Notes under the pieces: generated by a model
What the model was told of the DNA's origin: nothing
What the model saw: the letters and a program-made list of their open reading frames with translations, nothing else
The model's database searches: none
Shown here: positions 55,546 to 64,000 of the stretch, piece by piece
Numbering within the stretch: the first letter of the stretch is position 1
Layout: every line of letters begins with the position of its first letter
Program-made: the position numbers and the translations under genes
Origin: Rhodococcoides fascians A25f
GTDB lineage: Bacteria > Actinomycetota > Actinomycetes > Mycobacteriales > Mycobacteriaceae
Reading direction: 5' to 3'
Assembly: GCF_000760935.2 (NCBI RefSeq)
Contig: NZ_CP049744.1
Span: forward strand, 2,345,001-2,409,000
DNA length: 64,000 nucleotides

Positions 55546-55899
55546 TCGACTCGTGCCGGTGTTGCCCTGCTGCAGTTCCGCATTTCTTCAGTGTGCTCGT
55601 TGTCGAGGGCGTGTGCTGCCGCATTGTTGGGTGAAGTTCCCGAACACCGGACTTCGACACCGTGGTGGGGCGGGCGGGGCTCGAACCCGCGACCAATGGA
55701 CTAGCGGTAGGGGCGGCCCGTTAGGTCCCACTGGATGCCCTACAGTGTTGTTAGGCAACACGACTCGGGTGGCAGAGTGCCCATCCATTCCGGCCTGTTC
55801 TCGCAAGTTCCCGTTCATTATCGATGAATAAACGATGGTCGTATTGCCTGGCTGTAGAGTCCGGTCGTCAAGGTCGGATCTGGAGCGAAAGGGACAAGC
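55546..55899. other. Left junction of integrated element, no gene
   Basis: This 354-bp gap holds the 3' tRNA fragment (55663-55697), a small inverted repeat TGTTG-N5-CAACA (55746-55760) and an AT-richer stretch with promoter-like hexamers before the first element ORF. No coding sequence is supported. Confidence 0.6.
55663..55697 (-). pseudogene. 3' tRNA fragment, attachment-site scar
   Basis: Read on the minus strand it ends in CCA with discriminator A, the acceptor strand CCGCCCC and an intact T arm (GCGGG-TTCGAGC-CCCGC), but no matching 5' acceptor (GGGGCGG), D arm or anticodon arm lies in the next 45 bases. This is what remains when an element integrates at a tRNA 3' end. The intact tRNA should be at the other end of the element, to the right. 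Isotype cannot be told. Confidence 0.75.
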
Positions 55900-56064
55900 A
55901 TGGCTACGTTCATTCTGAATGAGGGATACGACGGTGCACGTGAAATCGAGGCGCACCAGTTTGCAGAGGCGGGGTCGTTCGTAATCTTCTACGACGGCAG
56001 TGGTGATCAGGTGTTGGCATGCCCGACCGGCCGAGTGCACGTAATCACCCGCAAACCGGACTAG
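55900..56064 (+). CDS. Small element-encoded protein, 54 residues
   Basis: The only plus-strand gene of the element. It encodes a 54-residue protein beginning M-A-T-F-I-L-N-E-G-Y and containing F-V-I-F-Y-D-G-S-G-D, with beta-strand character and no membrane span. GGAGCGAAAGGGAC precedes the ATG, and a hairpin follows the stop. Similar short proteins occur in actinophage genomes as far as I recall; function unknown. Confidence 0.65.
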   Translation: MATFILNEGYDGAREIEAHQFAEAGSFVIFYDGSGDQVLACPTGRVHVITRKPD

Positions 56065-56072
56065 GGTCGACC

Positions 56073-56106
56073 ACCCCTTCTCGCGGTTGGCCGTGAGAAG
56101 GGGGTG
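56073..56106 (+). terminator. Hairpin after the small plus-strand gene
   Basis: CCCCTTCTC and GAGAAGGGG (9 bp) pair around a 12-base loop directly after the stop at 56064. Confidence 0.6.
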
Positions 56107-56117
56107 CGGCAGACGGA

Positions 56118-56150
56118 CCCCAACTGTGTAAATTTCCAACACGGTTGGGG
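56118..56150 (-). terminator. Hairpin at the end of the leftward head operon
   Basis: Arms of about 12 pairs (CCCCAAC-T-GTGT with ACAC-G-GTTGGGG, one G-T) with loop AAATTTCC. It lies downstream of the last leftward gene and is the probable operon terminator. Confidence 0.6.
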
Positions 56151-56217
56151 GGCTGACATTGAGCATGACGCACTGTCGCCCTCACATACGTAATACCTGC
56201 TCAGGTTCGCTACGTTG

Positions 56218-56547
56218 CTAGATCAGTTCGAGCCGGTGCATCTGGTTGCCGCCGATCACCGGCAGTTTGCGCTCTCGGTCTGTCAGGTCTCCGCTGTAGG
56301 CGTGCTCGTAGACCACCCACACGTCAGCGCGGCGGCCAGCGCGGAGCATGTCCGCGAACTCATCCATCGACATGCCTGATGCGTCGTAGAGGTCGATCAC
56401 CTTGACCACCCCGGCGCTGTTTTCGAGGCCTCGTGCGATCTGAGCGAGGTCGGCCACCGACTGGGCACGTTTCGGTGTGGCCGAGGGCGGGGTGACGCTC
56501 GGAGGGATTGCGACGGTGCGGCCCGTCGAGCCACGCCCGCCCATCAC
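56218..56547 (-). CDS. Element protein of unknown function, 109 residues
   Basis: A soluble protein with a Ser/Pro/Thr-rich N-terminus (about 30 residues) and a helix/strand C-terminal part (D-V-W-V-V-Y-E-H-A-Y). GTG 56547 or ATG 56544 overlaps the stop of the DUF4417 gene, so it is coupled to it. No family is recognised. Confidence 0.65.
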   Translation of the reverse strand: MMGGRGSTGRTVAIPPSVTPPSATPKRAQSVADLAQIARGLENSAGVVKVIDLYDASGMSMDEFADMLRAGRRADVWVVYEHAYSGDLTDRERKLPVIGGNQMHRLELI

Positions 56548-57257
56548 AGACCACCGACCGTCGCGGCGTCGGTCGCGTCTCGCTTGCGACGATCCCAGTG
56601 GGTCGGATATTCGACCACGGGCGGCAATTCAAGCCCGTCGACGTGCCGCAGTCGGCCGTAGGCGAGCAGTATCGACGGCCGCAACCGCTCGATAACCTGC
56701 TCGAGTCCGTCACGGAATGCACGAATGCTGTCGGTGTCTCCCGATCGCACCCCGACGCTGGACACGGCGACCGTCGCTCCGGCCTCCAGTCCTGCGAATG
56801 CGTAGTCGTAGCTCGCTCGATCGGACCAGGACACCGTGGGGATGACGTCGACGCCGAGGGCCTGCCAGTACGCGGCCACCCACCGGGAGCGGTAGACGTT
56901 CCACACCGACGCGGCCCGCGGCATTCCTCGCCACAGCGAGAAGTCGGGCGACAGTGCACAGCCGACAGCGATCGCACGACGAGCAGACCGCTCGGGCGAG
57001 GACCAGACCGTCTCGAAACGGTAGTCGTCGAGGAAGAAATGCACCGCGCCACCGGTCTCGGCGGCGTGCTGGCGCTGGCGCTCGACGTGCCATGCCGCGA
57101 GATTGGCCGGCATCGCGTGCGATGGCGCGAGGTCTGGGATGCCGTGCTCGTTGCTCGACGGAAACAGCGTCCGGAGGTTGAGCGCATCGAGGCGGCCCGG
57201 GTTGGTCTGCCACCGAGTACTCGAGCGAGTGCCGTGAATGCCGGTGATCGTCGTCAT
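56544..57257 (-). CDS. DUF4417 family protein
   Basis: A 237-residue protein with the DUF4417 patterns F-F-L-D-D-Y-R-F-E-T-V-W, L-S-P-D-F-S-L-W and N-V-Y-R-S-R-W-x2-A-Y-W-Q-x-L-G, and V-I-P-T-V-S-W-S. DUF4417 proteins are common in phages and plasmids; the biochemical role is unknown. ATG 57257 follows GAAAGG; an upstream in-frame ATG (57353) lies in a hairpin and lacks a site. Confidence 0.82.
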   Translation of the reverse strand: MTTITGIHGTRSSTRWQTNPGRLDALNLRTLFPSSNEHGIPDLAPSHAMPANLAAWHVERQRQHAAETGGAVHFFLDDYRFETVWSSPERSARRAIAVGCALSPDFSLWRGMPRAASVWNVYRSRWVAAYWQALGVDVIPTVSWSDRASYDYAFAGLEAGATVAVSSVGVRSGDTDSIRAFRDGLEQVIERLRPSILLAYGRLRHVDGLELPPVVEYPTHWDRRKRDATDAATVGGL

Positions 57258-57350
57258 GGCTGGTGACCTTTCGGAAAACAGGGTGCCGGTGTCGGCATCG
57301 TGGCTGGTGGGGCTACTTGCCGGGACGTTTTGGGGCCCGCTGTAAAAATC

Positions 57351-57374
57351 CATGGGGACCGGGCAGTCCCCATG
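57351..57374. repeat. Perfect 9-bp inverted repeat ahead of the DUF4417 gene
   Basis: CATGGGGAC-CGGGCA-GTCCCCATG. It lies in the 150-base gap between HNH and DUF4417 genes and may be an RNA hairpin or operator. Confidence 0.5.
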
Positions 57375-57407
57375 AGGGCGGGGTGGGCTTCGTAATAATC
57401 GAGGGGG

Positions 57408-57803
57408 TCACTTCATGTCCGGCCAGTCCATGAAACGCGTACCGAGTGCGAGCTCCTCCTCGCCCAGTCGCGGCTCCTTCCTGACGCTCGTCCCATCCGC
57501 CCACTCCCAAGGTGGTACGTCGGTCACGGCCGGTCGCTCGGCGTCGCGAGAACCATCCTGACGCTGCGAGTTACAGCGGCCGTGCAGAAGACGATCGGCC
57601 CTGCCGCCGGACCGTGCGTTCGCGCCTGAGTGATCAGCGGCCAGCGGCTTCTCGTCCCAGTTCGATTCCGGATCCTTGAAAAGTGGCAGATCGCACCAAA
57701 AGCAGGGGCTGCCGTCGATGTGCCGGTACAGCAGGTTCTTGCGCACCGTCACATGGTCATAGCCGTAGCCACGCTCGTGCCTTGATTTGCTCGTTCCGGT
57801 CAT
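57408..57803 (-). CDS. HNH endonuclease
   Basis: A 131-residue nuclease with C-F-W-C at about residue 36, A-A-D-H-S-G near 57 and L-L-H-G-R-C-N-S-Q-R near 72, the H-N-H core with zinc cysteines. AGGAG precedes the ATG. In phages and capsid-encoding satellites such HNH proteins sit beside terminase or head genes and help DNA packaging. Here it follows the head genes. Confidence 0.85.
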   Translation of the reverse strand: MTGTSKSRHERGYGYDHVTVRKNLLYRHIDGSPCFWCDLPLFKDPESNWDEKPLAADHSGANARSGGRADRLLHGRCNSQRQDGSRDAERPAVTDVPPWEWADGTSVRKEPRLGEEELALGTRFMDWPDMK

Positions 57804-57837
57804 ATCGGCGCTCCTGATGAGGTGTGAGTGATGAACG

Positions 57838-57870
57838 AAGCCCCCGACCCCGTAGCGAGGTCAGGGGCTT
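57838..57870 (-). terminator. Hairpin between head genes and HNH gene
   Basis: AAGCCCC(C/T)GACC arms with a 9-base loop, 12 pairs with one wobble. It may attenuate transcription between the capsid genes and the HNH gene. A second nested hairpin follows at 57902-57936. Confidence 0.6.
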
Positions 57871-58014
57871 CGAGGGTTCGGCGCTGGCGGGCTTAGGTGA
57901 CGGGCAGACACCCTCAGGGGTGCCACCGAGTGCCCGCGTGCCGCCATGCATTCCGCTTCCCATGGAAGGCCTCGAAAGATCGGGAGCGGTGAGTTTGACG
58001 CCGAAGATCGGGGG

Positions 58015-58455
58015 TCAGCGGAACCAGGCAGCCTCTTGCACGACCTCTTCGTGCTCCTGACCGTGTCCGGCCTCGCTGAGCGGCACTGCGAGCTCGTTCG
58101 GGATCGAGGCGAGCGTGTCGGCCATCGTCGGGTCGGCGGTGATCGCTGTGACCCAGTGCTGGATGCGCGAGGGGGCGATCGCGCCGCGTGCCACGGCATC
58201 CTCGACCTTGGCGCGCACCTGACGGGTCTGCTCGGCGGCCGCGATGACCTTGCCCTGCTCTGCGTCGTGGCGGAGCTGTGCGAGTGCGGTCGGGTCGAGC
58301 CCTGCGGCGGCTGCGACCTGCTCGGGGGTCGGTTCCGGCGCGGTGACCAGTTCCTCGACGGCCGCGAGCACGGTATCGACCGCGGCGTCGGCGGGCAGGG
58401 CTAGTGCCTCGAGCAGTGCGGTCCATGTGGCTTCGGGAACGGTGGTGTCAGCCAT
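58015..58455 (-). CDS. Head scaffold-like protein (Mu gpI C-terminal type)
   Basis: A 146-residue acidic, Ala-rich helical protein. Its C-terminal half (V-E-D-A-V-A-R-G-A-I-A-P-S-R-I-Q-H-W followed by A-x2-D-P-x2-A) resembles the scaffold region at the end of Mu gpI-type protease-scaffold proteins. Here it is encoded apart from the protease, on the other side of the capsid gene. AAGGAGA precedes the ATG; it overlaps the preceding gene by eight bases. Confidence 0.6.
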   Translation of the reverse strand: MADTTVPEATWTALLEALALPADAAVDTVLAAVEELVTAPEPTPEQVAAAAGLDPTALAQLRHDAEQGKVIAAAEQTRQVRAKVEDAVARGAIAPSRIQHWVTAITADPTMADTLASIPNELAVPLSEAGHGQEHEEVVQEAAWFR

Positions 58456-58861
58456 TCGTGTTCTCCTTCGGGGTGTCGAGTTGCGTTACGGCAGCGATGA
58501 TTTCGTCTTTGTCGAGCGCGTCGGCATCGATGCCTCTCTTCTGCGCGTAGGCCGCCCACACGGCTTTCGTGGCCGCCGTCTTCGGGCGATCGAGCGCCGG
58601 GGGCGTCGAGGTGACGTTCGGGATGGACGTGCCCTCGGTAGTGCCGGGTTCGCCTGCCGAGAGCGGTTCGTCCTGAACCCCTGTTGCCGCGTCGAGGTCG
58701 CCTGCATCGTGCAGGTCTCCTGCGGGCTCGAACACGCCGAGGTGCTCGAATTCGGCGACGATGCTGTCGTCGATGTCGACGGTCTGGCCGTGTGTCGCCA
58801 GGCGCGCGGTGCCGTCCTCGGTCCACGAGAACAGTGCGTGTGCGATGGTCACCAGGGCCAT
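58448..58861 (-). CDS. Head-associated protein with C-terminal HeH/Rho-like motif
   Basis: A 137-residue protein: beta-like N-terminus (about 45 residues), a linker rich in Asp, Ala, Thr and Pro, and a helix-extension-helix type end (K-A-V-W-A-A-Y-A-Q-K-R-G-I-D). It starts three bases after the capsid gene, where head completion or accessory head proteins are found. Function inferred from position only. Confidence 0.55.
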   Translation of the reverse strand: MALVTIAHALFSWTEDGTARLATHGQTVDIDDSIVAEFEHLGVFEPAGDLHDAGDLDAATGVQDEPLSAGEPGTTEGTSIPNVTSTPPALDRPKTAATKAVWAAYAQKRGIDADALDKDEIIAAVTQLDTPKENTNG

Positions 58862-58864
58862 GGC

Positions 58865-59755
58865 TCAGCCTGCCAATCCGACGAGCTTCTTCACCGCATA
58901 GGGCCTTTCGAGCGCGAACGCGGGGACTGCGAAGCCCTGGACCCACTTCGAGCGGATCGAGCGGTCGTCCCAGGTGTCGACGGTCAGGGGGAACTCGAAT
59001 CCGACCGTTCCGGCCTGTCCCTTCTGCAGGGCGTAGCCGATGCCCGGCGTCAGGCGCGGTGTCGAGAAGATGCCCGCGGTCAGTCCGGCCGACTTGAGCA
59101 CGTCGTCGAGGTTCTCGCCGTAGGCGACCTTGAGTGCGCGCTCCTGGTTCGGGTGCAGCACCAGCAGGTCGTTCTGCACGCCGAGTTCCTGCAGGTCGTT
59201 CGCGAGCTGTGCGTCGGCGAAGTCAGCGGCGGGCCGTGCTGCGTTCGGCGTCAGGTTTGCCTCGGGTCCGGTGGTGATCACGGTGTTCCAGTTATGCCCG
59301 GCGATGGTGTTCTCGGCACCGATACCTGCATCGACGACGGCCAGAGCCGAATCGTTCAACTTTCGGACGATTGTGTTCGTGAGCTGCGTCGTCTGCTGGT
59401 CCAAGTAACTCGCGTCGTTGCGCTTGACCCGCTCGTCGGAGATCGAGAATTTCCCTCCCCAATCCTCGGGCTTTGCCAGCTTCGACTCGGGGTCGACGCC
59501 CTCGACGATGGCGTATTCGGTCTCGGGAACGCGCTGCTCGATCGGCTTCGACGTGTAAAAGTCGCTGGCCTTGATTACCGAATAAAGCAGGCCGCCGCCT
59601 TCGACGGGAGCCCCGAGAGAAGTGAAGAACTTGTCGAGCACGAGCTGCGGATCGGCCAGCGCGGCAATGCGATTGCGGATGACGCTCTGCTGCTTGAGCG
59701 CGACGTCGACGGTGAGCCGACGCCCGTTCAGTTCGGGAATGAGGGAGTTTGCCAT
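58865..59755 (-). CDS. Major capsid protein
   Basis: A 296-residue protein starting M-A-N-S-L-I-P-E-L with an N-terminal helix and a capsid core (D-P-E-S-K-L-A-K-P-E-D-W-G-G-K-F-S-I-S-D-E-R, and L-V-L-H-P-N-Q-E-R-A-L). The pattern is that of HK97-fold capsid proteins of actinophages. ATG 59755 has GAAAGGA upstream. Neighbours (protease, decoration protein) support the call. Confidence 0.87.
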   Translation of the reverse strand: MANSLIPELNGRRLTVDVALKQQSVIRNRIAALADPQLVLDKFFTSLGAPVEGGGLLYSVIKASDFYTSKPIEQRVPETEYAIVEGVDPESKLAKPEDWGGKFSISDERVKRNDASYLDQQTTQLTNTIVRKLNDSALAVVDAGIGAENTIAGHNWNTVITTGPEANLTPNAARPAADFADAQLANDLQELGVQNDLLVLHPNQERALKVAYGENLDDVLKSAGLTAGIFSTPRLTPGIGYALQKGQAGTVGFEFPLTVDTWDDRSIRSKWVQGFAVPAFALERPYAVKKLVGLAG

Positions 59756-59768
59756 GGGTGAATTCCTT

Positions 59769-60134
59769 TCAGTACAAGCTGATTTCGGCGTCAGCGCCGG
59801 ATGCGGCACCTGTTACTGCAAACCCGACCGCGATGCCGGAGGTCTTGGTGACGACCTGGCCTGCAGCACCGACCTCGACCTCGGCGTTGGCGGCGATCGT
59901 GCCCGCTGCACGGATGAGCACCACCCGTGATGCGCCTCGGCTGACGGCAACGAGTTCACCGGATCCGGCGTCCTCCTTGGCCACACCGAATGCGCGGGCT
60001 GCGGCTGGCGCGGGAGCTACGGCGATGTTGCCGCCTACTCGGTTGCCGCTGACGGCGACGAGTCGCTTCGCCAGGACGGCCGAGGTGGCACGGACGGTGA
60101 CATCGGCACCGGGCTGGTAGACGGAGACGTTCAT
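59769..60134 (-). CDS. Capsid decoration-like protein (DUF2190-like)
   Basis: A 121-residue protein of small residues and beta strands with A-A-G-x-I-A-x-N-A-E-V-E-V-G-A-A-G-Q, as in phage decoration/DUF2190 proteins that bind the outside of heads. The start overlaps the protease stop (ATGA) and the capsid gene follows after 13 bases. Confidence 0.75.
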   Translation of the reverse strand: MNVSVYQPGADVTVRATSAVLAKRLVAVSGNRVGGNIAVAPAPAAARAFGVAKEDAGSGELVAVSRGASRVVLIRAAGTIAANAEVEVGAAGQVVTKTSGIAVGFAVTGAASGADAEISLY

Positions 60135-60748
60135 GTGTTGTCCTTCCGAGATTCGTGCAGCTTCAGTGCTGCGGTGGCAGTGCGGTGGCGGCGGCGGGTC
60201 GCGGCCACTTTGATCTGGGCCCGCTGGCGGGCGGTGAGGGTGTCCGTTCCACGCGGTGCGGCCGATGCTCGAGTGAGCGTGACCGGCGTGCCAGCCGATG
60301 CTGCGACGGCGACGCCGAAGAGGTCTCCAATGTCGGCCAGGGTGGAGATTCCCGGGCGTGTGACGCCGAGTAGCGAGACGGCGGTGAGGACCAGGGGATA
60401 CTTCGTGCCATCTGGCATGACGACGTCATGCACGGCTTCGATGGAGCGTCGAGGGAAGGCGCTGGCGGCGATGTCGCTCAACCAGGCAGGAACTCCGACG
60501 AGATCGCCGACGAGGGTCTGGTCGCTATCTGCCAGACGGATGTTCTCCACCTGGCCGAGGGCGGGTTCGCCGTCGAACCGTGGATCGACGTGGCCCAGCT
60601 TGATTATCGGGCGAGGCACCGCGCCGGATGCGTGCGCTTTCTGAGCGGCGCGGAGCAGGTGCGGAGTGGCGTTGAACGTTCCGGTCGACACCGACCACTT
60701 GCCGACCTTCACCAGCTCGACGCTTGCAATTGTCTTCGTTTCAACCAC
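60131..60748 (-). CDS. Head maturation protease (Mu gpI-like)
   Basis: A 205-residue protein with the gpI-like sequence I-K-L-G-H-V-D-P-R-F-D-G-E-P-A-L-G (about residue 47) and P-R-R-S-I-E-A-V-H-D (about 97), then a Thr/Arg-rich tail that is basic. Such proteases cut scaffold and capsid in head maturation. The start is uncertain: GTG 60748, or GTG 60760 overlapping the preceding stop. Confidence 0.78.
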   Translation of the reverse strand: MVETKTIASVELVKVGKWSVSTGTFNATPHLLRAAQKAHASGAVPRPIIKLGHVDPRFDGEPALGQVENIRLADSDQTLVGDLVGVPAWLSDIAASAFPRRSIEAVHDVVMPDGTKYPLVLTAVSLLGVTRPGISTLADIGDLFGVAVAASAGTPVTLTRASAAPRGTDTLTARQRAQIKVAATRRRHRTATAALKLHESRKDNT

Positions 60749-60753
60749 AGCGC

Positions 60754-61146
60754 TCAACACCGTGGTTGACGAGCGGCCCGTTCGTGCACGGCCGCTGCAC
60801 TGAGAAACCAACGGCCACCAACACGTCGGCCGCGGATGCTGCCACGGCGCGCGAGGTCGCGGACGGCAGCCGGTGTGCTGCCGAGAATCGCTGCGGCGGT
60901 GGCGGTATCGAGGTCACGCCCCGATGATGCACCCTCAGGGCCGATTTCCCCCGAAAGTCTTACGTTGGCGTCAGATTCTCTTACGTCTGCGGCGGATTCG
61001 AGCTGTGAGCGCAATAGTTCGAGCTTCGGTGTCGGCCGAGAACCGTTGCGTCGGAGCAGGTTGACGAACAGGTTCATCGCCTCCGCGAGTGTGCGCGCAT
61101 CCTCGGCCGTGAGGATCACGCCGACGACGCGGCGGATGTCACTCAC
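60754..61146 (-). CDS. Helix-turn-helix (excisionase/MerR-like) protein
   Basis: A 130-residue protein. Its C-terminal 55 residues form an excisionase-type winged helix (T-A-A-A-I-L-G-S-T-P-A-A-V-R-D-L-A-R-R-G, then R-R-V-G-G-R-W-F-L). The N-terminal half is helical. GTG 61146 overlaps the previous stop (GTGA). It may regulate the element or act in excision. Confidence 0.75.
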   Translation of the reverse strand: MSDIRRVVGVILTAEDARTLAEAMNLFVNLLRRNGSRPTPKLELLRSQLESAADVRESDANVRLSGEIGPEGASSGRDLDTATAAAILGSTPAAVRDLARRGSIRGRRVGGRWFLSAAAVHERAARQPRC

Positions 61147-61520
61147 TCGTCGGCACCGAGGTCTCGACGAAACTGCTTCATCCACGCGGCAAGGTCGGTC
61201 GAGTCCCCGGGTGGATCGTCGGTGACGGCCGGAATCCTGGCCTCCGCCTCCAGCCGCGCGGCTCGCATCGCATGAGCGTTGAATACCTCGCTGAGCATGG
61301 CGGTTCCAAGCTGCGGGACGATGTCTCGCGCGACGTGCATCAGGGCCAGCATGAGCCGGTCGAGGCGATCTTCTTCCTTCGCGCTGTCGATCAATTCGGT
61401 GAGCACATCGTACGAGCGGTCCGGTCGCTGTTCCGATGTCAAGAACACCTCCCACGCGATCGAGGCTCGTCGTCGGTCGGCCCAGTACATGGCCATGGTC
61501 GGGCGTCGTTTCTTCGTCAT
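61143..61520 (-). CDS. Element protein of unknown function, 125 residues
   Basis: A helical, charged protein starting M-T-K-K-R-R-P and ending D-L-G-A-D-E. No domain is recognised. It overlaps both neighbours (ATGA, GTGA). Confidence 0.7.
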   Translation of the reverse strand: MTKKRRPTMAMYWADRRRASIAWEVFLTSEQRPDRSYDVLTELIDSAKEEDRLDRLMLALMHVARDIVPQLGTAMLSEVFNAHAMRAARLEAEARIPAVTDDPPGDSTDLAAWMKQFRRDLGADE

Positions 61521-61738
61521 TCCACTGTCTCCCTTGCTGTTTCGATCGTGTCGATGATTCTGTCAGCGAGCCTGACCGCTTCGGTGAATGTGTGAGGTCG
61601 GCCGCCGATGGCGACGATGCCGGGCGATCCGAGCGCGACGGGGATCTGCTCGCGATGGTCGCCGCACCGCTTGGAGCGTGAGCGAGTACGCGCGTCGCAC
61701 CCCTCGGCTTCGCACGTGATTGCGTTCTGGCGGGCCAT
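61517..61738 (-). CDS. Small zinc-finger-like protein
   Basis: A 73-residue protein with C-E-A-E-G-C and K-R-C-G-D-H near the N-terminus (a likely zinc site of C-x4-C and C-x2-H) and a helical C-terminus. ATG 61738 (or GTG 61741) overlaps the whiB-like stop. Function unknown. Confidence 0.65.
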   Translation of the reverse strand: MARQNAITCEAEGCDARTRSRSKRCGDHREQIPVALGSPGIVAIGGRPHTFTEAVRLADRIIDTIETARETVE

Positions 61739-62073
61739 CACGCAACGTCATCGCTGCGAGGTCGACCTGGTGGCCGGCGGAATTCGGGAAGTCGTCCGGC
61801 GAGCACACCGTCCGATGCGGGTTCGTCGATCGACCAATCCCGGCACGGCCCGATTGCCGGGCACTCCCAGCACAGCCGCACGGCTGCTCTGTGGCGCTCT
61901 TCGACGTCATCGCGAGACTCACCCTCACCCATCGGGTCGAACAGCTCGCCACGACCGACACAGGCCGCGTCGGGCAGCCGCACCGTCTCCCGAAGCACGT
62001 CGGTCAGGATCATCTCGAGTGGCGATCGCGGGTCGGCCCCGCTGTTGATGTTCCGGCTGCGGCGAGTTCTCAC
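61738..62073 (-). CDS. WhiB-like iron-sulfur regulator
   Basis: A 111-residue protein with the four WhiB cysteines (Cys38, Cys68, Cys71, Cys77 in pattern C-Xn-C-x2-C-x5-C) and the turn D-G-V-L-A-G-R in place of the usual G-G-V-W-G-G. Wbl proteins bind [4Fe-4S] and act with sigma factor. Phage-borne members exist (mycobacteriophage TM4 WhiB). GTG 62073 has AGGGAAG upstream and overlaps the preceding stop; ATG 62013 is an alternative. Confidence 0.82.
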   Translation of the reverse strand: MRTRRSRNINSGADPRSPLEMILTDVLRETVRLPDAACVGRGELFDPMGEGESRDDVEERHRAAVRLCWECPAIGPCRDWSIDEPASDGVLAGRLPEFRRPPGRPRSDDVA

Positions 62074-62246
62074 AGGTTCTTCCCTGAGTCGTTGATGGTG
62101 GCTGTCTGTGCGAGGTGCGGGCGGCATCGAAGGCACGGGATCGGGCGCGCCTCGTCGTCGTAGCCGATCCACCCGTTCGAGCAGTGGTGCGATTGCACGA
62201 CCGACAGGTGTCGCTCGTCGATCTCTTCGCCGGTTCGATCCTTCAC
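62070..62246 (-). CDS. Small zinc-ribbon-like protein, 58 residues
   Basis: The ORF from GTG 62246 has H-H-C-S-N-G-W-I-G-Y and P-C-L-R-C-R-P-H, giving a Cys/His set for one zinc. AAAGGAG lies upstream and the stop overlaps the WhiB GTG (TGTGA). Proteins of this kind accompany early phage genes in actinophages. Function unknown. Confidence 0.65.
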   Translation of the reverse strand: MKDRTGEEIDERHLSVVQSHHCSNGWIGYDDEARPIPCLRCRPHLAQTATINDSGKNL

Positions 62247-62351
62247 GTGAATCAGAGACTCCTTTCCGGTACGCGCGCATGTGCGGTCGTAAGCCGAGTT
62301 CGAAAGCGACCACCCTTGATCTCTGGTTGATCAGTACGTGATTTGCATGAT

Positions 62352-62537
62352 TTAGCGACACTGGTGTCGCTTTGAACTGCCACCAATGTCGTTTCGACTT
62401 GCGCAAATGTCGTTTCGACTTGCGCAAATGTCGCTTTGAAATGTCTCAAATGTCGCTTAGACATGGGTATCTCGGAGCAGTCGAGGCGACATGGGTGTCG
62501 TTTCCGAATCGACATTCGAAGCGACACCCATGTCGCC
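62352..62537. repeat. Iteron array, candidate origin of replication
   Basis: The core TGTCG recurs at 62365, 62387, 62408, 62429 and 62451, spaced 22, 21, 21 and 22 bases (two helix turns), in a longer unit CAAATGTCG(T/C)TTNGA. Further copies in direct or inverted form lie at 62496, 62510 and 62531, two in larger palindromes inside the 3' end of the adjacent winged-helix gene. Such phased iterons next to a replication gene are the usual form of a Rep-binding origin. Confidence 0.7.
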
Positions 62538-62900
62538 TACAGGCCTGCCATCGGGGTCGAGCCATAGTCGATCGAGGACGTCCGGCGGGACTGCCAGCCG
62601 GTACTCGGCGGGAGTTCCTTTCCAGTTGTTCGCCGGTCGAGTTCGGACGATCCAACCGTTGTTCCGGAGCCACACCATGCCGCGGTTGACGGTCCGAACA
62701 GTGACCTCCATTTCGCGCGCCAGGCGCTCGACACTCGGTCGCACACCGGTCCCGTCTTTCGACGAGCCGAACGTTGCGAGAGTGAGCGCGAGGAACTTGG
62801 CCGACCCCGGCATGCGGGTTCGCTTGACGACGCGCTCCCAGTCGAACCTGCCGATAGATTGCGGGCCGTCCTCGCCGTCGAGAACTGGCGCTGCTGTCAT
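62457..62900 (-). CDS. Winged-helix replication-type protein
   Basis: A 147-residue protein with a winged helix (L-A-L-T-L-A-T-F, V-R-P-S-V-E-R-L-A-R-E-M-E-V, T-V-R-T-V-N-R-G-M-V-W-L) of the kind seen in phage replication initiation proteins. The iteron array begins inside its last codons and extends just beyond its stop, so it is a good candidate for the iteron binder. The ATG overlaps the previous stop (ATGA). Confidence 0.7.
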   Translation of the reverse strand: MTAAPVLDGEDGPQSIGRFDWERVVKRTRMPGSAKFLALTLATFGSSKDGTGVRPSVERLAREMEVTVRTVNRGMVWLRNNGWIVRTRPANNWKGTPAEYRLAVPPDVLDRLWLDPDGRPVGDMGVASNVDSETTPMSPRLLRDTHV

Positions 62901-63154
62901 AGTGACTCGCGGACCTCCGCGTCGGCCCGGACTCGCTGCTCGTCACGGGCCAGCTCCTTGGAGGTCCACTCCTCCGGGGTAGGAATCGTCGCCAGGACGG
63001 TAGCCAAGGCGTCGACGAGATCGACCGCCTCGGTGAGGTCCAGCGAGATACTCGATGACCCGTACACAATCCTGAGGCGTTTACCCTCGACGTCGCGCGT
63101 GACGACGACAGGGGCGTTTGTGAGTTCGTCAATTGTCATGAAAGCCATGATCAT
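62897..63154 (-). CDS. Element protein, 85 residues
   Basis: A small protein with beta strands in its first half (V-V-V-T-R-D-V-E-G-K-R-L-R-I-V-Y) and a charged helical end. ATG 63154 overlaps the preceding stop; ATG 63148 is possible. Unknown function. Confidence 0.65.
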   Translation of the reverse strand: MIMAFMTIDELTNAPVVVTRDVEGKRLRIVYGSSSISLDLTEAVDLVDALATVLATIPTPEEWTSKELARDEQRVRADAEVRESL

Positions 63155-63474
63155 TTGCCCGTTCTGGTTGGCTCTGCGGCATCCGCGAGCATGGTGAGGG
63201 AGGCTGCGAGTCGGCGTGCGTCGTGTGGTTCGATCGACCACGGGCCGAACTCGATTTGCGGGCCGCCGAGCCCGTTGTCGTGAAATACCGCAGTGATCGG
63301 TACGTCGTCCCACGAGTCGGCGGCGGCATTGCAGAGCTTGTGGTGGTGCCGTTCGATGAACAGCCGTGGCGCGTCGTCCAGTACGGGATACCGAGTGTCC
63401 GGTGGCAGCTCGCTCCACGGCTCGGGCGCGGTCTCGATCGGCGGCTGCGGTCGGTGCCAGAATTTCTCGTCCAT
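63151..63474 (-). CDS. Element protein, 107 residues
   Basis: Soluble protein rich in Pro and His (R-H-H-H-K-L near residue 43) with W-S-I-E-P-H-D-A-R-R-L-A near the end. Several actinophage proteins share the last pattern (P-x-A-R-x-L-A), but I assign no function. Overlaps both neighbours. Confidence 0.6.
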   Translation of the reverse strand: MDEKFWHRPQPPIETAPEPWSELPPDTRYPVLDDAPRLFIERHHHKLCNAAADSWDDVPITAVFHDNGLGGPQIEFGPWSIEPHDARRLAASLTMLADAAEPTRTGK

Positions 63475-64000
63475 CAGGCCACCACATCCGATCGAGCCTC
63501 GATGGCGACCGCGCGGCTAGCCTCCTGCAAAAGCTGTGCAGCGAATGCCAGGGCCTCGCGAGGCAGGAACGCCACGTTGGCACCGCAGTTCATCGACAGG
63601 TACGGCTGAGTGATCTGACCACGGTCGTTGGCCTGCCAGGTCGTTGAGGCGTAAACCTCGTTTCTGTCGGGACCGATGTACATGCTCGGGGTGCCGACTG
63701 TTCCTTCCGATCGGTGCCACTCGCCCTCGAACGCACCGTCTTGACTCTCGGTCTCGATCTCGCCGGGGTTGAGCGCGCGGTAGTCGACGACGGCCTCGAT
63801 GACCATCTCCACGAACGCGTCGATGTTGCGCGGCAGCACCGTGAGGTCATGGAAGGACTGGCCGCCGTCCTGGTCAGCGCAGTCGATCACGATGTTCGGC
63901 TTCTCGGTGAAGGTCTCGTCACCGTCGTGTCCGTCGTAGCGCACCACCTGAGCGACGAACGCGCCCTTGGTGACCTGCGCAAGGATTGTGTCCTGGCCGC
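63474..64000 (-). CDS. Element protein, N-terminus beyond right edge
   Basis: The reading frame stays open to the window edge, so the protein is at least 175 residues; GTG 63947 would be an internal start. The C-terminal third ends in L-P-R-E-A-L-A-F-A-A-Q-L-L. No family is recognised. It is the most upstream gene seen of the leftward operon. Confidence 0.6.
   Translation of the reverse strand, partial: GQDTILAQVTKGAFVAQVVRYDGHDGDETFTEKPNIVIDCADQDGGQSFHDLTVLPRNIDAFVEMVIEAVVDYRALNPGEIETESQDGAFEGEWHRSEGTVGTPSMYIGPDRNEVYASTTWQANDRGQITQPYLSMNCGANVAFLPREALAFAAQLLQEASRAVAIEARSDVVA

Follow-up and report, generated by a model that had tools for sequence, protein, structure and literature searches.

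Phage satellites have been reviewed in PMC11389934, and many actinobacterial elements of <15 kb may be satellites according to PMC10023795. Capsid-forming phage-inducible chromosomal islands (cf-PICIs) are listed in PMC10690885 with genes for a major capsid protein (MCP), protease, portal, connectors, terminases, and HNH endonuclease; by that account they encode portal, head–tail connectors, and both the large (TerL) and small (TerS) terminase subunits, and borrow tails only. The Mulch/Flayer satellites of Streptomyces (MulchRoom, MiniFlayer), as described in the same source, encode TerS, TerL, portal, MCP, scaffold, and adapter and display direct terminal repeats (PMC10690885). Classical PICIs and Staphylococcus aureus pathogenicity islands (SaPIs), P4, and PLE are portrayed as using the MCP of the helper and altering shell size via a scaffold-type protein (PMC10690885, PMC10945586). 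We describe here an element integrated in the chromosome of Rhodococcoides fascians A25f (NZ_CP049744.1), most of which lies at the right-hand end of a 64,000-nucleotide stretch (G000:C1:2345001-2409000, hereafter the window). We think it reasonably probable that it is an intact integrative phage satellite of a shell-only kind, which would build its own small shell and take portal, motor, and tail from a helper. To our knowledge, satellites that make capsids otherwise supply the portal along with the shell.

The element shares with cf-PICIs its own MCP, protease, and HNH endonuclease, a PICI-like organization and, as proposed here, helper dependence, but among its proteins no portal or terminases were recognized; these are also what separate it from the Mulch/Flayer satellites, which it resembles in being actinobacterial and having its own capsid genes. 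With classical PICIs/SaPIs, P4, and PLE it has in common a small size, integrase, regulator, own replication and, probably, use of a helper terminase, although it brings its own MCP. Regions of Mycobacterium with an integrase and an MCP, including phiRv1/phiRv2, are treated as candidate PICIs in PMC10654092; some sit at tRNA genes, phage induction is not demonstrated there, terminase and scaffold are mentioned in some, and the word "portal" does not occur in the main text. These candidates are likewise small and integrated with integrase and MCP, but as far as the accessible portions of that article go, they are defined by those two genes alone, and no hallmark such as the g13 protein discussed below, size clustering, or separate scaffold is described. 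The integrase–MCP satellite idea is thus partly known already (PMC10654092), and some of the mycobacterial loci in our set (M. szulgai, M. kyogaense, M. sp. AT1) could already belong to that article's data set. An initial annotation of the window had proposed a possible new satellite type; any novelty would lie in a portal-less family with g13 and not in the general integrase–capsid idea already published for Mycobacterium. The open-licence literature yielded no description of a capsid-encoding satellite lineage without a portal, though an earlier description may exist. The phiRv capsids probably belong to another capsid family.

The boundaries of the element are exact. The initial annotation had placed a tRNA scar at ~55.66 kb and advised reading rightward to the intact tRNA, which was done on fetched DNA extending to the right (L002, where position equals window position minus 53000). 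The left scar (attL, 55665-55700) is an exact 36-bp copy of the 3′ end of tRNA-Met(CAT). A second copy of this core (66313-66348) lies inside the intact tRNA-Met(CAT) gene at 66313-66387 on the minus strand (L002 13313-13387), outside the window. The copy-to-copy distance is 10,648 bp, and the right end falls 2.3 kb past the window edge. That outer part holds an excisionase-like gene (64177-64377, minus), an HTH (helix-turn-helix) repressor (64446-65114, plus), and a tyrosine integrase (65104-66270, plus), with no terminase or portal. Seven of 19 congener loci examined (L075, L076, L077, L081, L083, L085, L087) have an empty site, where the flanks adjoin, one 36-bp core is in common, and the element interior is unmatched; the other 12 matched over just the core or over part of the left flank. 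Exact ends and empty sites demonstrate integration at tRNA-Met. An element at another locus (L063, NZ_JNYV01000005.1) occupies the same tRNA-Met site.

What the element encodes for a particle is a leftward capsid operon. As the initial annotation had read it, the order is protease, decoration protein, MCP, head accessory protein, HNH, and DUF4417 genes, to which a scaffold open reading frame (ORF) is now added. On the minus strand lie the head maturation protease domain without a C-terminal scaffold (60131..60748, start codon uncertain), the cement/decoration protein (59769..60134; PF09956), the 296-aa MCP (58865..59755; Pfam PF25209, PHROG 1650, predicted HK97 fold), the 137-aa connector-like protein g17 (58448..58861), and the scaffold g18 (58015..58455). 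Comparison of all 20 element proteins with Pfam and PHROGs gave no portal or large terminase match, and the corresponding proteins of related phages (TerL, portal, TerS, adaptor, stopper, major tail protein, tape measure) had no tblastn match in L002, as had been predicted for portal, terminase, and tail genes. PHROG 57 "terminase small subunit" is weakly matched by two HTH proteins, g13 (E 0.012) and the excisionase-like protein (E 0.0025), which fit excisionase and DNA-binding families equally well or better. The protein g17 matches PHROG 2322 "connector", and adaptor and stopper homologs are absent from the element. Element ORFs of ≥300 aa that pass a codon-position GC filter are the integrase and the MCP only; a 505-aa frame on the strand opposite the capsid genes (58244-59761, plus) is taken as a shadow. 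In terms of the described classes, the element has the integrase, demonstrated integration, and incomplete virion gene set of satellites in general and the integrase and MCP in one phage-like region of a Mycobacterium-type candidate PICI. Like a cf-PICI it has its own MCP and protease, without the own portal and own terminase of that class, and it does not have the portal, TerL, and tail genes of a complete prophage.

To judge by their sequences, siphophages such as Schnabeltier, prophi100A-2, and Rem711 are the source lineage of the head genes. Relative to the element, these three have ~38-42% identical MCPs, ~56-59% identical cement proteins, and the same protease and scaffold domains; unlike it, they possess TerL, portal, connectors, tails, and a fused protease–scaffold, with no g13 in the segments searched. 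The nearest phage MCPs (prophi100A-2, Schnabeltier) are 42% identical. Against 50,697 phage records the MCP matched 103, all at <60% identity, and MCP queries from two other elements matched 155 and 36, none at >60%; a plasmid collection of 72,556 records gave no MCP match. The related phages confirm the expected siphophage layout, with terminase and portal before the capsid gene and tail genes after it: their head operon runs TerS, TerL, portal, protease, cement, MCP, connectors, tail. The element retains the run from protease through cement and MCP to the next gene, and the phage genes on both sides of this run are absent. Such phage-type genes, arranged as in one section of a siphophage head operon, are what a deleted prophage that had lost terminase, portal, and tail and was decaying in place would show, which the initial annotation had named beside a portal-less counterpart of cf-PICIs. 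Against decay stand the intact ends and the empty sites in congeners, to which the scaffold, the family, and the selection data below add.

The scaffold has been relocated. In Schnabeltier it forms part of a 480-residue protease (gp4), whose residues 16-173 align with the element protease and residues 342-469, in the C-terminal domain, with g18. An iterated profile was used to trace the domain across 40 elements and phage loci. In 24 of the 40 elements, the near full-length domain stands as a short ORF of its own, downstream of the MCP, whereas in 8/8 phage or prophage loci with a scaffold match (Schnabeltier, prophi100A-2, Rem711, Powerball, Prairie, L047, L048, L132) it lies near the end of a 427-610-codon frame upstream of the MCP; Prairie's gene is annotated as scaffold, not protease. 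GMA4, Nergal, and Juicebox gave no match to this profile, nor did 9/40 elements. The match is confined to the later half of the domain in six elements (L036, L055, L063, L127, L131, L135) and to its first part in L144. Four of the six later-half matches sit in open frames of 74-214 codons right after the MCP gene, and such ORFs could possibly be mini-scaffolds.

An AlphaFold2 model of the MCP (pLDDT 82) predicts an HK97 fold, with structure matches that single out no particular phage; a sequence search for solved-structure relatives found none credible. Foldseek ranks encapsulins and an engineered nanocage highest (E 8.9e-13 on), ahead of the HK97 prohead (3e-10), as would be expected if the shell were an encapsulin-like compartment or another domesticated container rather than a DNA carrier. 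We regard this as very improbable: the HK97 fold is common to all of these proteins, the sequence families hit are those of phage MCPs, and the MCP is accompanied by protease, cement, and scaffold in a mobile context.

Relatives of the same layout, as the initial annotation had suggested looking for, are numerous. MCP matches were found in 16/201 related genomes, and an MCP profile matched in 57/401 genomes of the family, from which neighborhoods were taken for the stronger matches (E above ~1e-23 left aside); public collections added 15 genome loci and 3 viral contig loci. Neighborhoods were searched with profiles for MCP, g13, protease, cement, scaffold, WhiB, TerL, portal, adaptor, major tail protein, and tape measure, and the comparison set comprised 65 non-redundant rows (58 loci and 7 named phages). 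Forty rows have g13 and no TerL or portal match; 22 have a portal, 21 of them also TerL, and no g13 at E<1e-10, the row without TerL being a 3.2-kb contig with part of a portal (L049). None of the 65 carries both g13 and portal/TerL, and three rows near contig ends (L056, L125, L151) were placed in neither state. The element and phage labels rest on these very marks, and the informative parts are the lack of overlap and the agreement in position of g13, which lies directly upstream of the capsid module on the same strand in 40/40 elements. Some contigs end soon after the capsid genes (e.g., L039, L053, L128), and absence there covers the sequenced stretch only. Dropped before the 40/22 count were duplicates or second copies (L038, L119, L120, L122, L123) and fragments with g13 (L146, L149) or with neither g13 nor TerL/portal (L040, L044, L045). 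Thirty-nine further loci share the layout, size, and lack of the window element. Such elements occur in no fewer than 30 of the 401 genomes of the family, across 11 genus codes, with named hosts that include Rhodococcus, Williamsia, Gordonia, Tsukamurella, and Mycobacterium. Spread across orders was considered for L063, entered as Kitasatospora arboriphila, and rejected; its genome probably groups with Williamsia, and it is treated as mislabelled.

The hallmark g13 (60754..61119, minus), common to all 40 element loci, comprises an N-terminal helical part and an HTH_17 winged helix. Its protein had no match in the 50,697 phage records, and its profile none in eight phage segments; a weak match at the edge of prophage L145 (E 3e-4) fails the 1e-10 cut. 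Thirteen of 19 g13 members match PHROG 57 TerS at E≤0.05, and 16/19 match MerR/excisionase families.

MCP trees place the elements together. A first tree (23 elements, 14 phages, including prophi100A-2, which is in this tree only) has the elements on one side of a branch with support 83/71, and in a second (40 elements, 22 phages) the best tree needs a single change of state, at a weakly supported branch (77/47), with 38/40 elements and two rows of neither state behind a branch of 96/88; long branches are present and flagged by the tree tool. In 12 comparisons of capsid-module genes with relatives, no internal stops were found and dN/dS was 0.07-0.55, values that indicate purifying selection and bear out the earlier argument that uninterrupted ORFs speak against decay. 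Frameshifts shared across copies, or a full portal/TerL/tail set in the rest of the element, had been named as refuting outcomes; neither was found. The elements of Tsukamurella spumae and genome G118 are 86% DNA-identical over 3.5 kb around the capsid module and little alike elsewhere; the module therefore moves as a unit. A prophage decaying in place is already largely refuted by the one-sided tree, open genes under purifying selection, the scaffold relocated alike in 24 loci, and 40 loci with the same lack plus g13, a protein not found in phages; we assign it a very small probability. A portal-less counterpart of cf-PICIs is the half of the earlier alternative that these 40 loci and intact ends favor. 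The element is very likely an intact mobile element of an old, distinct family.

For 41 loci, size was estimated from the longest direct repeat with one copy on the integrase side and the other past the capsid genes. Repeats of ≥18 bp were found in 26, from which L035 was removed, its repeat lying in a duplicated integrase. The 25 delimited elements span 8,027-10,860 bp (mean 9,827, standard deviation 649), and in 20/25 the repeat overlaps an ARAGORN-called tRNA gene (Met, Asn, Arg, Ser, Thr, Ala, Leu, and Lys among them). Fetched stretches allowed sizes to roughly 19 kb, and therefore the ~11-kb ceiling is not a search artefact. Replication genes vary widely (initiator only, DUF3631, AAA_25, D5/Prim-Pol); a range this narrow despite such variation suggests a packing limit. 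In G100 (L037/L038; G100:C2, ~85001-120000) a related element is present twice, head to tail, the copies being 9,257 bp apart and followed by a single tRNA-Thr gene, which fits recent activity. At L035 and L055, at least two integrase-like genes lie next to the capsid element, and neighboring or stacked elements may be the reason.

The delimited elements also bear on whether the family could be cf-PICIs whose highly diverged portal and terminase genes escaped the searches. They contain 32 large unlabelled ORFs (≥300 aa), and none of the 25 scanned with Pfam or PHROGs matched a portal or terminase. Room for such genes is left by five scanned ORFs without assignment (three in L121, one in L152, and one in L052 with a weak HTH match only) and by 7/32 outside the scan, several of which resemble shadow ORFs. 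Since the large ORFs of relatives for the most part encode primase/helicase or AAA proteins at the replication position, and no ORF as large as a portal or TerL gene is left unassigned in the window element, the shadow ORF apart, hidden portal and terminase genes appear highly unlikely.

The remaining genes surround the capsid module on the minus strand. Toward attL lie the HNH endonuclease (57408..57803, 131 aa), 52% identical to an HNH near TerS of prophi100A-2; a 269-aa DUF4417 protein (56544..57353; PHROG 940 "nuclease"), which reaches ~61% identity with gene 1 of Gordonia phages such as JSwag, located at the left end of their genomes; and g21 (56218..56547, 109 aa), with no Pfam match and a weak PHROG match (E 0.016). 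The DUF4417 and HNH genes adjoin (56544-57803), and JSwag (L155, 1-4000) has both near its left genome end, as genes 1 and 4. In a blastn search with the attL-side 2.4 kb, DUF4417 similarity is among the matches listed (15 of 307). Upstream of g13 follow g12 (61143..61520, 125 aa), g11 (61517..61741, 74 aa; homolog in L030), a WhiB-like regulator (61738..62013), g9 (62070..62246, 58 aa; homolog in L041), a 147-aa replication-initiator-like winged-helix protein (62457..62900; PHROG 270, 391), g7 (62897..63154, 85 aa), g6 (63151..63474, 107 aa; homologs in L030, L033, L041), and g5 (63474..64000, running to 64061 beyond the window; 195 aa). The candidate replication origin, expected near 62.4 kb, consists of six TGTCGYTT repeats on the plus strand (62365..62503), the first five 21-22 bp apart; these iterons overlap the 3′ end of the initiator-like gene, and a 21-nt inverted repeat (62484-62538) overlaps the end of the origin. 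Integrase and HTH repressor are read rightward; excisionase-like gene, initiator, WhiB, g13, and capsid operon leftward. No translocase gene was seen among the element's proteins in the Pfam/PHROG scans, which included no search aimed at conjugation. PADLOC gave no defence match in 10 proteins, 7 of them from the window element.

If the element is a shell-only satellite, infection or induction by a helper siphophage would relieve the repressor, and the element would excise and then replicate from its iterons. Its MCP and separate scaffold would build a shell sized for ~10 kb, which helper portal, terminase, connectors, and tail would complete. The protein g13 may be a TerS-like adaptor that recruits the terminase of the helper to the element's DNA, or else a late regulator, and the HNH protein may help cut at the packaging site. 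With a T=7 capsid of a ~47-kb phage as reference, capacity scaled by shell volume would fit T=3 (~13 kb) better than T=4 (~20 kb). More tentatively, and as an idea we would rate somewhat short of even, the family may be a separate old satellite class that encodes the icosahedral shell only (the MCP, in most cases together with scaffold, protease, and cement) and receives the whole portal vertex, motor, and tail from the helper. In that case g13 would direct the helper's terminase or portal toward the small, foreign shell, whose size the detached scaffold would determine.

Several points weigh against a shell-only satellite. Neither a helper nor induction, particles, or transfer have been observed. 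Portal and shell usually must match, and borrowing a portal across ~42% MCP identity is therefore demanding. The HTH of g13 fits TerS no better than it fits excisionase and MerR families, the branch holding all 40 elements has weak support (77/47), and some elements have no recognizable protease or scaffold (no scaffold match in 9/40). In the host genome, neither PHROG 12 nor the Schnabeltier portal revealed a resident portal, and TerL_nuclease gave no match. PHROG 2 (terminase) has one weak partial match there (E 1.5e-4); a weak match of this kind, at L154 (G000:C1:2012725-2013057), away from the element, falls within a 713-aa frame. Finally, no packaging signal common to elements, or to elements and phage ends, was found: no candidate stood out at the top of the list of 12-16-mers shared among 20 element stretches, and short-word BLAST, in which four elements were compared with three phages at their left ends and with prophi100A-2 in its upstream region, and one element with the prophage of its own genome, returned coding similarity and chance-level matches.

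An alternative is an interference or defence element whose shell proteins poison helper capsid assembly and which itself spreads little or by other routes. Known satellites harm helpers, as reviewed in PMC11389934; a phage-homologous MCP without its own portal could be dominant negative; and the element is without parts needed for a complete particle. We nevertheless find such a role unlikely, since integrase, excisionase-like gene, initiator, and iterons are retained, the size range is narrow across many genera, the protease, cement, and scaffold kept in many members would be superfluous for pure interference, and PADLOC matched none of the seven element proteins.

The assembly of tailed-phage capsids is thought to start at the portal. 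If the shell-only reading is true, this family would show that one species can borrow the portal of another, and it would offer a small natural system for studying shell–scaffold–portal recognition and the setting of capsid size. Actinobacterial genetics would likewise gain a small satellite of ~10 kb with hallmarks, g13 and the MCP, that can be searched for in genomes.

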